Below are positions 1 through 35,391 of a stretch of 35,765 nt of DNA, in pieces (the first letter of the stretch is position 1; every line of letters starts with the position of its first letter). The position numbers and the translations under genes were made by a program. This DNA comes from Flavobacteriaceae bacterium (GTDB taxonomy: Bacteria; Bacteroidota; Bacteroidia; Flavobacteriales; Weeksellaceae). The notes below the pieces were generated by a model. That model saw nothing but the letters and a program-made list of their open reading frames with translations. It was not told the DNA's origin and ran no database searches. The stretch is from positions 1-35,765 of the forward strand of contig JAITMJ010000054.1 of assembly GCA_031277475.1 (NCBI GenBank), in the 5' to 3' direction.

Positions 1-71
1 TTGTATCGCTGGCGATTCAAAACTATACCTGCTTTGCAGTATTCTTCACTGCTACATCTTGGACATTTCAT
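1..71 (-). CDS. Transposase N-terminus (IS1-like zinc-ribbon start), partial
   Basis: Reading the minus strand from 71, the frame begins MKCPRCSSEEYCKAG and continues to NRQRY at the window edge. A CxxC zinc-ribbon knuckle, then a further Cys, then a basic NRQRY stretch, is the usual start of short IS1-type transposases in Bacteroidota. Only 23 codons are visible, so catalytic residues cannot be checked. The start overlaps the stop codon of the truncated upstream gene (ATGA overlap at 68-71), a by-product of the insertion. Another zinc-ribbon protein is possible but less likely at a gene breakpoint. Confidence 0.55.
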   Translation of the reverse strand, partial: MKCPRCSSEEYCKAGIVLNRQRY

Positions 72-32214: not shown

Positions 32215-32310
32215 GACGGTTGGCGTGTCACACTGATTCTTCGACAAACTCAGAATGACAAGTCGATTTTGAATCTTGAATTTTGTCAGGCTGAACAAAG
32301 TCAAAGCCCA
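32215..32310. repeat. TTCGACAAACTCA / TGTCA-type interspersed repeats
   Basis: Contains TGTCACACTGATTCTTCGAC followed by AAACTCAGAATGACA, and TTTTGTCAGGCTGAACAAAG. The TGTCA...TGACA ends form an imperfect inverted repeat. Related pieces occur at 13613, 18673, 19512, 28671 and 35417. Confidence 0.6.
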
Positions 32311-33302
32311 TAAAACCTCTTCTTAAAAATTTTCATTCCCAAATTTGTCGGAAGGTTGTCCAAAAAATTTTTCTTTTTCGTGTCTGTAGAAAATTTTGAT
32401 GAGAAATAATCCCATAAACTCAAGGATTTCAGCGTTTTATAATTGGAATAACTCTCTTTCCAAAGTTTTTCATCCTTTTGGGCTTTCCAATTCATAATAA
32501 GCGTATTGTGTTTATAATCAATAAGATATTTTAAAATCAAATTTTTGCGTTTGGTATTTTTTTCTTCTTTCAAGGCTTGGTTGATGTGTTTTCCGATGGC
32601 AAACCAATTGTCAAAATTTCTTTTATCCCGATTATGAATCACGGAATTTTTATGCAAAAAATAAGTGTATGTGATGTCTTTATGAATTGCAATTTTATTG
32701 ATTTTCAGCATAATATGAAATGTCCAAAGTTCATCTTGCGCAAAAAGTCCTTTCACGAAATAAAGTTTATTTTGCCTTAAAAAATCGGTTTTTATCAATT
32801 TATTTACGGCATAAGTTACCAACTGTCCTTCTGAAAAATCTTTCAAAATTTCATCATTTCCGTTAATAATTTCTTTTTCGCTTTTTATTTTGATGCAAAT
32901 AGATTTTTCGCCGGTTTCCAATTGTTCGCATTCCAACTGAGAAATCGTCATTTCGGCGGCGGTTTTTTCGGAAATATTGACCAAAGTTTCGATGCAATTT
33001 GGGGTAATCGTATCGTCGCTGTCCAAGAAAAAAAGATAGGTTCCGTTTGCCGTGTCGATGCCTTTATTTCTCACCACCGAAAGTCCGGAATTTTCCTCCA
33101 AATGATGGATTTTCCAAGTGTTTTGAAGGTTGTTTTTTCGGATAAAATTTTCCGCAATTTTCACGGAATCGTCCGGAGTTTGGTCGTTAATCAACGTAAC
33201 TTCGAGATTTTTGTAAGTTTGAGCCAACACGGAATTTAAACATTTTTCCAAAAAACTTTCGCATTTAAAAATCGGAATGGAAATCGTAACCAAAGGTTGC
33301 AT
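32301..33302 (-). CDS. Family 2 glycosyltransferase (GT-A fold)
   Basis: 333 aa. N-terminal GT2 domain: VTISIPIFKCESFLEKCLNS, LINDQTPDD, NSGLSVVRNKGIDTANG and the DxD-type FLDSDDT (about 91-97). The C-terminal half is helical and basic, as in capsule or LPS glycosyltransferases. Expected to add a sugar to a surface polysaccharide; donor and acceptor are unknown. Divergent from the epimerase gene downstream, which may supply its nucleotide sugar. Confidence 0.88.
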   Translation of the reverse strand: MQPLVTISIPIFKCESFLEKCLNSVLAQTYKNLEVTLINDQTPDDSVKIAENFIRKNNLQNTWKIHHLEENSGLSVVRNKGIDTANGTYLFFLDSDDTITPNCIETLVNISEKTAAEMTISQLECEQLETGEKSICIKIKSEKEIINGNDEILKDFSEGQLVTYAVNKLIKTDFLRQNKLYFVKGLFAQDELWTFHIMLKINKIAIHKDITYTYFLHKNSVIHNRDKRNFDNWFAIGKHINQALKEEKNTKRKNLILKYLIDYKHNTLIMNWKAQKDEKLWKESYSNYKTLKSLSLWDYFSSKFSTDTKKKNFLDNLPTNLGMKIFKKRFYGL

Positions 33303-33342: not shown

Positions 33343-33447
33343 AAGATAAAAGACAATAGACAATAGACAATAGACAATAGACAAGAGACAAGAGACGAAA
33401 GAGTAAAAACAAATCTCGAAACTCGAAACTCGAAACTCGTACCTCGA
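33343..33447. repeat. GACAATA tandem repeat and ACTCGAA tandem repeat
   Basis: Five or six units of GACAATA/GACAAGA (33353-33394) followed by several ACTCGAA units (33415-33447). Similar ACTCGTAACTCG units occur at 29557-29577 and 33708-33725, and a CGAGTTTCGAG unit at 8767-8777. Confidence 0.8.
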
Positions 33448-33480
33448 ATTTGCCTCCTGCATTTTTATTTTTTTTTAATG

Positions 33481-33660
33481 GTGTCGGCGAAACCTAACGG
33501 AGTGGTTCGGCGTAGCCAATCCTTCGGATTTGCGTGAGGGATGGAAGTGGAAATCCTTTTTTTTGCGGTTGGGATTTTTGCGGTGGCAAAAAAAAGATTG
33601 CAACGGACAGCCCGACCCGAGCGGTTGCAATGTTTTGGCGAGGGACACGCCCAAGAAATA
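33481..33660 (+). ncRNA. Candidate structured RNA (possibly flavo-1-like)
   Basis: GC-richer than its surroundings and without a convincing reading frame. It folds into a hairpin AATCC-TTC-GGATT (33518-33530) and a long stem AATC-C-TTTTTTTTGC paired with GCAAAAAAAAGATT (33552-33566 with 33586-33599, one bulged C). Conserved-looking blocks are GCGTGAGGGATGGAAGTGG and GCAACGGACAGCCCGACCCG. From memory these blocks recur in Flavobacteriia genomes, and the flavo-1 RNA is one candidate identity, not checked. The strand is set by the downstream promoter and block order, and is also inferred. Confidence 0.5.
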
Positions 33661-33682
33661 GAAAAAGGCAAAATACATTTTA

Positions 33683-33690
33683 TATCTTTG
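33683..33690 (+). promoter_or_regulatory. Probable -7 box of the epimerase promoter
   Basis: TATCTTTG matches TAnnTTTG. It lies after the candidate RNA and 78 bases before the preferred epimerase start, so an upstream start at 33541 is unlikely. Confidence 0.45.
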
Positions 33691-33768
33691 TGGAAAATTT
33701 TCGGGATACGAGTTACGAGTTATGAGTTTGATTCTGAATTAAATAGCAATAAGCAAAAAGCCAAATAC

Positions 33769-34752
33769 GTGAATACATTAACACACAAAAAAATTTTAAT
33801 TACCGGCGGTGCGGGATTTATCGGTTCCAATCTTTGTGAGGAACTCCTAAATTTGGGCGGAATTGTAACTTGTCTCGACAATTTTTCTACCGGAAAAAAA
33901 GAAAATCTCGATTCTTTTAAAAATCATCCGAATTTTACTTTAATTGAAGGCGATATTCGCGATTTGGAAACTTGCAGACAAGCCTGTGAAAATCAGGATT
34001 TTGTGTTGCACGAAGCCGCGCTCGGCTCTGTTCCGCGTTCCATCCACGATCCGATTACGAGCAACGCCGTGAACGTCAGCGGATTTCTAAATATGCTCGT
34101 CGCCGCAAGAGATTCCGGCATTAAAAAATTTGTTTACGCCGCAAGTTCCTCCACTTACGGAGATTCCGAAACGCTGCCGAAAGTGGAAAACCAAATCGGA
34201 AAACCGCTTTCGCCCTACGCTGTTACGAAATATGTGAACGAACTTTATGCCGATGTTTTTAAAAAAACTTACGATTTTAATTCCATCGGATTGCGGTATT
34301 TTAATGTTTTCGGGCGAAGGCAAGACCCAAACGGTGCTTACGCTGCGGTGATTCCTAAATTTGTGATGCAACTGATGAACCGCGAATCGCCAATCATCAA
34401 CGGAAACGGCGAATATTCCAGAGATTTTACTTATATCGACAATATTATTTTAATCAATCTTTTGGCACTGACTTCCGAAAATCCGGCTGCAGAAAATCAA
34501 GTTTATAATGCGGCTTTCGGCGAAAGAACCACGCTGAACGATTTGACGAAATATCTTAAAAAATACCTTTCAGAATTTGATTCCGAGATTGCAAACGTGG
34601 AAATAAAATACGGCGATTACAGAAAAGGAGACGTTCCACATTCTTTGGCAAGCATCGAAAAAGCCCGCGAATTGCTGAATTACAATCCGAAATTTTCAAT
34701 GAAAGACGGTTTGAAAGAAGCAGTGAAATGGTATTGGGAGAATTTGAAATAG
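33769..34752 (+). CDS. wbpP: NAD-dependent UDP-GlcNAc C4-epimerase (WbpP-like SDR)
   Basis: Predicted to interconvert UDP-N-acetylglucosamine (or its uronate) and the galacto form for surface polysaccharide. Begins with the NAD-binding ILITGGAGFIGSN (glycine motif about 13-19), then DNFSTGKKENL, AALGSVPRSIHDPI, SSSTYGDSETLP and catalytic YAVTK, then RYFNVFGRRQDPNGAYAAVI. 327 aa from GTG 33769, which matches family length. The longer frame from 33541 would cross the candidate RNA and repeats, so it is rejected. The divergent GT2 gene is a likely pathway partner. Confidence 0.88.
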   Translation: MNTLTHKKILITGGAGFIGSNLCEELLNLGGIVTCLDNFSTGKKENLDSFKNHPNFTLIEGDIRDLETCRQACENQDFVLHEAALGSVPRSIHDPITSNAVNVSGFLNMLVAARDSGIKKFVYAASSSTYGDSETLPKVENQIGKPLSPYAVTKYVNELYADVFKKTYDFNSIGLRYFNVFGRRQDPNGAYAAVIPKFVMQLMNRESPIINGNGEYSRDFTYIDNIILINLLALTSENPAAENQVYNAAFGERTTLNDLTKYLKKYLSEFDSEIANVEIKYGDYRKGDVPHSLASIEKARELLNYNPKFSMKDGLKEAVKWYWENLK

Positions 34753-34800
34753 ATTTGGAAAGATACGAAAACCATATGCTTTTCTCATAAGGTTTTTTTG

Positions 34801-35297
34801 GCTACAGATTATTATACATTTGATGATTTAAAAAACTTTGACAATATTGAAAAACAAAAATTAAGCCTTTACAATTCAACGGAACTAACAAACGGTTTTT
34901 ACAAAGATTTTAATTCTTTCAAAAATCAGAATCCTGAAAAAGAAATTACGAATGTAGCATTCAGCACTCCTGAAAAAATTACTAAAATCTATGAATTGAT
35001 TGACGGCAAAGAAAAAGAAATCAAAAAAGACGAGGTTTATTCTGTTGTGTATCAAGGTATTTCGTATATTATATCCCTACTGAAAACCTATTCACTAAGG
35101 CAACAAAAAGAGATAATGATTTTTATTTTACAGGAAAAATAAAATCTACTGCCAAAACCGGAAATGTGGTGGCGGCATCTGCTTTCTTTGGTATTATAGG
35201 AGGTTTAATAGCCTCCGGCTCTAATTCCGTACCATTTGAACTAAAGCTTGATTATATAAACGGGGGTTTTATTCCGATTACAGAGGTTAAGAAATAA
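34801..35297 (+). pseudogene. 3' part of a secreted-protein gene, 5'-truncated and frameshifted
   Basis: Begins abruptly at ATDYYTFDDLKNFDN without a start codon; the first 193 bases match 118-310 in inverted orientation. It then supplies the C-terminal half missing from the left copy (ELIDGKEKEIKKDEVYSVVY). Near 35066 one frame ends and the next continues YIPTENLFTKATKRDNDFYF, KTGNVVAASAFFGIIGGLIA and ends ITEVKK plus TAA at 35295-35297. A single base change near TCGTATATTATATCC explains the shift. Confidence 0.85.
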
Positions 35298-35311
35298 AAA
35301 TTTGTAATGCC

Positions 35312-35391
35312 GGAAGCCGTGAAATTCTGTTCGCTCGGGCAAATCACGAATGCACTTTTTGAAGTGGGCGGGAAATATAGGAGGAATATGT
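35312..35391 (+). repeat. Copy of the icmF 3' end
   Basis: 80 bases match 938-1017 (inverted) with 4 differences by eye, all synonymous; 28 codons are open from an ATG at 35307 ([20 protein letters not shown] ... YRRNM) to a TGA at 35391-35393. No other mutase sequence is present. It directly follows the secreted-gene remnant. Confidence 0.9.

Follow-up and report, generated by a model that had tools for sequence, protein, structure and literature searches.

Flavo-1, catalogued as a small RNA, may rather be an interspersed hairpin-forming DNA repeat

Introduction

Between a glycosyltransferase-like gene and an epimerase-like gene of a Flavobacteriaceae bacterium lies a short stretch that a first-pass annotation flagged as a candidate structured RNA, with Flavo-1 as a possible identity. 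The locus raises the question of what a Flavo-1 copy is: an RNA gene, or an element of the DNA itself. The existing records favor RNA, whether a stand-alone sRNA or part of a UTR, at many loci. Rfam lists the family (RF01705) as "Gene; sRNA", and Weinberg 2010 (PMC2864571) rates it as "probably" RNA and probably not cis-regulatory. Since 2010 the family has been listed among bacterial small RNAs with no function assigned. According to an F. psychrophilum transcriptome study (PMC9723704), Flavo-1 matches are found on either strand of transcribed regions without distinction, and many are in none; some 5' transcribed regions overlap matches, which also speaks for RNA. The available portions of the literature on Flavo-1 or RF01705 nowhere call it a DNA repeat, and a search for work on palindromic repeats or REP elements in Flavobacterium returned nothing relevant.

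The Flavo-1 Copy in the Window

The window, meaning the whole stretch of 35,765 nucleotides that was analyzed, gave a single match in the Rfam scan: RF01705 at 33527–33621 on the forward strand, with 65.8 bits (E 2e-12) against a gathering score of 42 bits. It covers the full model (1–76) and agrees with it in both sequence and structure. As had been suspected, the match is a genuine Flavo-1 copy; its parts are a basal stem, a pair of 3x3 purine internal loops, a T8/A8 stem, and a variable apex. When the copies from the same genome were oriented and aligned, conservation began at 33532 and ended at 33651, with divergent sequence beyond, and these limits define the whole element (GCGTGAGGG...GGACACGCC, forward strand), which has a 5-bp terminal inverted repeat, GCGTG/CACGC, at its ends. 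The two hairpin arms, GGGATGGAAGTGGAAATCCTTTTTTT (33538–33563) and AAAAAAAAGATTGCAACGGACAGCCC (33588–33613), were delimited as an inverted repeat (I3) and by covariation. They are 26 nt long and 73% complementary, with a perfect 11-bp inner stem (33556–33566/33586–33596), and resemble the "14-bp stem with a bulge" first described. The apical segment (33567–33585) is variable; the palindrome CAAGGAGGCATGCCTCCTTG is found there in three own-genome copies (L010, L016, and L018). A lineage-specific 3' extension, ending in GGCGAGGGACACGCC, runs past the Rfam model (33614–33651) and was not found in the copies of G007, a Flavo-1-rich genome of another genus.

Other parts of the original description also held. 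Additional inverted repeats are present (e.g., 33592–33604/33624–33636), as is the sequence block GGACAGCCCGACCCG, and a GC-richer stretch does exist, with 50% GC at 33490–33619 versus 27–36% just upstream. An upstream module with TCGGCGAA and CCTTCGG (33481–33531, forward strand) emerged from the comparison of own-genome copies. TCGGCGAA lies within 70 nt upstream in 11 of the 20 copies, and the repeat is therefore often composite. Farther out, the element is flanked by tandem repeats of short units (AGACAAT; ACTCGAA) and by an inverted repeat of 30 nt with 83% complementarity (33344–33448 and 33700–33729).

The folding energy of the sense strand is ordinary, with a z-score of −0.03 as RNA and −1.03 as DNA. 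Consequently, the structural evidence is comparative. The Rfam match, the 20 copies in the genome, and the covariation put the feature beyond chance. An open frame that runs through the element (33541–34752) was considered as a conserved peptide and ruled out because the length of the poly-T tract differs between copies.

The element lies between two divergent genes. Upstream, on the reverse strand, is the glycosyltransferase-like ORF of 333 aa (32301–33302), labeled from the first-pass annotation and a reading of its translation; downstream, on the forward strand, is the NAD-dependent epimerase/SDR-like ORF (33769–34752), with a presumed GTG start at 33769 in the frame open from 33541. Promoters of Bacteroidetes follow the consensus TTG-17..23-TAnnTTTG, with TAnnTTTG as the −7 element. 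The separate downstream promoter proposed earlier is plausible because a TAnnTTTG box, TATCTTTG, stands at 33683–33690 on the forward strand as a possible −7 element of the epimerase gene; a sigma-70 scan found no promoter downstream of the element. Flavo-1 lies upstream of this box and is predicted to be outside both mRNAs of the flanking genes.

Copy Number, Gain, and Loss

The genome itself (2.99 Mb in 156 contigs) holds 20 Flavo-1 matches, 19 of them over the cut-off; two of the 20, identical stretches at contig ends (L014 and L015), are probably one copy. Of 59 relatives, 31 have matches, and counts among relatives range from 0 to 123. G007 has 106, and its genus mates G059, G074, and G080 have 91, 123, and 113. 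Across a phylum sample the distribution is patchy (46 of 296 genomes), and in one genus, g20, the number falls to 0–4 in the close relatives G352 and G286. Our control, the 6S-Flavo RNA, was found once per genome in 43 of the 59 relatives; none of the 59 gave a match over the Rfam gathering score, and one clear match per genome was used. Phage, plasmid, and viral-contig collections were scanned and gave no Flavo-1 copies. High copy number, intergenic position, and palindromic form, by which REP-type elements are recognized, are all found in Flavo-1.

Individual sites show both gain or loss and long retention. At a g20 site for which 27 of 30 fetched loci had both flanks, the element was present in 13 and absent from 14. 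Some sites without it carry other sequence and some a short spacer, and one of the 14 (G372) has a Flavo-1 core elsewhere in the locus. A third core type (TTAC...GTAA) is represented by several of the g20 copies. In some species the slot at these loci (L245–L274) holds other, partly repeat-like sequence, as if elements replaced each other. Such presence and absence at one site, together with a copy number of 0 to 123, weighs against a structured RNA.

Dispersed copies with a short terminal inverted repeat, as seen in the window's own genome, would also suit a MITE of a cut-and-paste (DDE) transposon. However, the ends differ between genera (TAGCCCC...AGCTCCTA in G007), no autonomous partner was found in the 1.72 Mb of loci scanned, and no target-site duplication was definable at the empty g20 sites, which are too diverged for the ends to be placed. 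We regard a MITE as very improbable.

One G007 copy was tracked through 23 genomes of its genus. The element is recognizable by eye in at least 18 of the 22 whose contig reaches the site, sometimes interrupted or decayed; the left neighbor has been exchanged in several genomes, and pair types are swapped between genomes (the pair table covers the 14 rows that fit a strict pattern; 9 did not). Retention of this length across a genus hints that the element is selected for some function and is no mere parasite, which counts against the reading as a DNA repeat. It is one reason to consider that Flavo-1 might be a selected chromosomal site (for gyrase, SMC, or another nucleoid protein, or at a gene boundary) that was duplicated and kept for its function.

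Gene Context and Orientation

The placement of the copies bears on that possibility. Among 70 copies examined in G007, 69 could be classified: 68 fall between genes, and the remaining one is inside a possibly spurious ORF of 130 aa. Only 11 of the 68 lie between divergent genes, which is below expectation by count (p = 0.016) and at p = 0.055 by length. Both features would suit a chromosomal site, as would the bias between replication strands in G007, where the sense strand falls on the lagging-strand sequence in 72 of 106 copies (sampled GC skew, p = 0.0003) and the best antipodal split, 75 of 106, was reached by 0 of 500 shuffles. However, the bias was significant in G007 alone: p was 0.44 in G025, 0.94 in G026, 0.11 in G031, and 0.074 among the 52 of 123 matches listed for G074. 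The strand bias of G007 may also follow from gene orientation, described below, and it was kept out of the main evidence. A site kept for its function is, moreover, hard to match with the 0–4 copies of G352 and G286, and we judge this explanation unlikely, though worth keeping in mind.

The orientation of the copies relative to genes speaks to the RNA question. Of the 46 G007 copies between co-directional genes, 32 have the sense strand opposite to those genes and 14 have it in the direction of the genes (p = 0.011). In the loci that we inspected, without a tally, we read Flavo-1 as lying beyond the terminator-like hairpin of the gene, outside the flanking transcription units. A promoter of its own was sought as TTG-17..23-TAnnTTTG and found upstream of none of 70 copies in G007 and none of 18 in the window's own genome (0 of 88). 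The structured RNA that was initially proposed is disfavored by its context, with neither a local promoter of this type nor, in G007, an orientation that follows the genes.

Base Pairing

Covariation, which had been named as a check on the candidate, is excellent. Among 40 copies, including that of the window (L002), RNAalifold gave 21 pairs, and 15 of them have changed on both sides. Of the three outcomes named beforehand as refuting the candidate, two, a missing Rfam hit and a lack of covariation, did not come about. The basal stem has the form 5'-GNA-(2 bp)-GGA-3' on both strands, with one subfamily departing from it; as we read it, GNA and GGA give two 3x3 purine loops in two-fold symmetry. 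The apex is free to vary; other palindromes occupy it in some copies, such as CAAGGAGGCATGCCTCCTTG in the three own-genome copies or a repeat of GATTGCTTCACTTCGTTCGCAATGACA in several from G007. Covariation of this quality favors a structured RNA, in which tandem sheared G-A pairs could arise within the GNA/GGA loops.

The kind of pairs points the other way. G-U occupied 8 of 597 cells in an alignment of 29 Flavo-1 copies, one per genome. Across 70 G007 copies, 5 of 700 cells in 10 core pairs were G-U; this count also includes 31 non-pair cells, largely from subfamily alignment. The 6S-Flavo RNA, a real RNA of the same genomes, had 48 of 419 in 28 sequences (Fisher p = 1e-12 and 2e-16, respectively), so that G-U is about nine-fold scarcer in Flavo-1. 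Watson-Crick alternatives of the transversion type made up 258 of 467 cells in Flavo-1 versus 31 of 95 in 6S. A structure fitted to 18 own-genome copies alone gave G-U in 35 of 496 cells, but in only 1 of 269 in the shared core. Rows L014 and L020 were dropped from the own-genome counts, and L224 and L243 from the 6S set, where a contig end had shifted the coordinates.

A pooled alignment of 116 copies, in which L022 was counted with G007 and left out of the one-per-genome group, gave 30 G-U, 24 A-C, and 47 other cells of 1739; the alignment is poorer for G007, and the ratio of 30:24 is probably inflated by misalignment. In the clean alignments G-U:A-C was 8:2 and 5:1, which are too few cells for a test of strand symmetry. 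This excess of G-U over A-C fits a weak RNA constraint and counts against a DNA repeat. G-U fractions from single-sequence folds did not separate the groups (0.083, 0.042, and 0.181 for Flavo-1 and 0.111 for 6S) because minimum-energy folds differ from the conserved structure, and the comparative count alone separates the two families. The Rfam-sense strand was also the stronger of the two in predicted folding of single-stranded DNA, in 28 of 29, 63 of 70, and 18 of 18 copies (109 of 117 overall).

Flavo-1 is a dispersed, mainly intergenic family that is gained and lost at given sites and whose arms covary almost strictly by Watson-Crick pairs. Because a DNA repeat accounts better than an RNA gene for the number of copies, their gene context, and their pattern of pairing, we think it probable, with reservations, that Flavo-1 is an interspersed hairpin-forming DNA repeat. 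That it is a structured RNA at its many loci seems unlikely to us, given its near lack of G-U pairs.

The Search for a Mover

If Flavo-1 is a DNA repeat, something should move it, and RAYT (TnpA_REP, Y1 HUH) transposases, which move REPs, are an obvious candidate. The Y1 transposase domain PF01797 occurs in 25 of 31 Flavo-1-positive versus 5 of 28 negative genomes (Fisher p = 1.5e-6) and, within the family, in 21 of 26 versus 2 of 10 (p = 0.0013), both tests ignoring phylogeny and genome size. By description, our A3 family of transposases matches TnpA_Y1 subclass 2.6 in length and in its WQ, YIH[QN]NP, and SS features, so far as the available part of Quentin et al. 2018 (PMC6006769) defines a subclass of Bacteroidetes genes flanked by "atypical secondary structures". 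Genes of this kind are broken by stop codons in G007 (C1:3055912–3056440; L326 and L339) and G005 (C7:18838–19360; L328 and L340), which are among the Flavo-1-richest genomes of the family sample.

Physical linkage is absent. Flavo-1 was near 0 of the 20 PF01797 loci scanned at the gathering threshold, 0 of 8 of these at E ≤ 5, and 1 of the 20 A3-family loci scanned out of 30 (L318), several of these places recurring among the PF01797 loci. Across all 40 Y1/RAYT locus entries, L318 is thus the only one with Flavo-1 nearby, a result that also weighs against a DNA repeat. Flavo-1 as the cognate REP of the L318 RAYT was rejected, as the RAYT there has hairpins of its own. In the window's own genome, where loci L050–L054 were inspected directly, four RAYT-like genes (G000: C30:5467–5811, C152:14809–15156, C143:2111–2449, and C27:17059–17403) likewise appear to be flanked by their own hairpins (e.g., CCGTAGGC...GCCTACGG), unlike Flavo-1. 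REPs normally flank their RAYT (PMC6006769). Genome G026 has 37 Flavo-1 copies and no A3-family gene. Finally, no invariant columns were found for a GT[AG]G hairpin foot, and GTAG occurs only where the N of the GNA loop is T. A RAYT of this or another subclass was therefore set aside as the mover, and we hold it to be quite unlikely that Flavo-1 is a REP moved by such an enzyme. Within the 1.72 Mb of scanned loci, we saw no longer element bounded by Flavo-1 ends.

Relation to Known Elements

Flavo-1 is REP-like in its behavior but departs from REPs in two respects, linkage to a RAYT and a fixed foot. Like REP/BIME elements, as described in the available parts of PMC6006769 and PMC3733652, it is an imperfect palindrome with many intergenic copies, a patchy distribution, subfamilies, and strand polarity. 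Unlike them, it spans about 80–120 bp rather than 20–40 or 21–65, lacks the fixed GT[AG]G foot, has a hypervariable apex, and does not flank a RAYT gene. The STAXI motif covaries as Flavo-1 does, and the accessible portion of PMC2864571 records that its authors considered a role in single-stranded DNA; it differs in sequence and taxa, and its UUCG loops were argued to favor RNA, whereas Flavo-1 has no fixed loop. Within Rfam, the window copy fits RF01705 throughout; its 3' extension lies outside the model, and its features point to a DNA repeat in a family catalogued as RNA.

Another comparison is offered by integron attC sites and the ends of IS200/IS605, which act as single-stranded DNA hairpins with a conserved base, a variable terminal structure, and one active strand, and in this Flavo-1 may be alike. 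Unlike those, it showed no gene-cassette arrays, and no transposase gene lay between copies in the 1.72 Mb scanned.

As a DNA repeat, Flavo-1 could work as follows. The hairpin would form in DNA, from single strands exposed at replication or by extrusion. A factor acting in trans, its gene lying elsewhere than next to the copies, would recognize the basal stem, in which the GNA-2bp-GGA loops have two-fold symmetry, and would move or copy the element, and correction from arm to arm or copy to copy in DNA would keep the pairs perfect. A more far-reaching form of this proposal is that Flavo-1 belongs to a distinct class of element that exists as a hairpin of single-stranded DNA, with the stem and its symmetric purine loops as the site of a trans-acting nuclease or transposase, the apex as a cargo slot for palindromes, and arm-to-arm correction that holds the stem to Watson-Crick pairs. 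We offer it tentatively, as a possibility less likely to be right than wrong. If it were true, the G-U test might serve to reclassify further "RNA" families of Rfam.

The consequences of a DNA repeat would be practical. Hundreds of annotated "sRNAs" in genomes of Flavobacteriia would be mislabeled, it would be clear why the F. psychrophilum transcriptome revealed no function, and there would be a factor that processes hairpin DNA to find in these genomes. A scarcity of G-U pairs is easy to look for in other RNA families known from covariation only.

Additional Observations

Some features of these loci stand apart from Flavo-1. In two genomes a Y1_Tnp match is embedded in an ORF of great length (1245 and 1284 aa), at G000:C133:20592–20912 (L054) and G031:C1:850252–850506; the surroundings of L054 resemble a restriction-modification methylase and hold repeated CAAGGGGATTAATCCCCTTG palindromes. 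The end of the window partly duplicates its start. Positions ~34800–34993 are 98% identical to 118–311 in reverse orientation, and ~35304–35391 are 92% identical to 938–1025, also in reverse, at the 3' end of a mutase-like gene. The two ends of the contig are thus partly duplicated.
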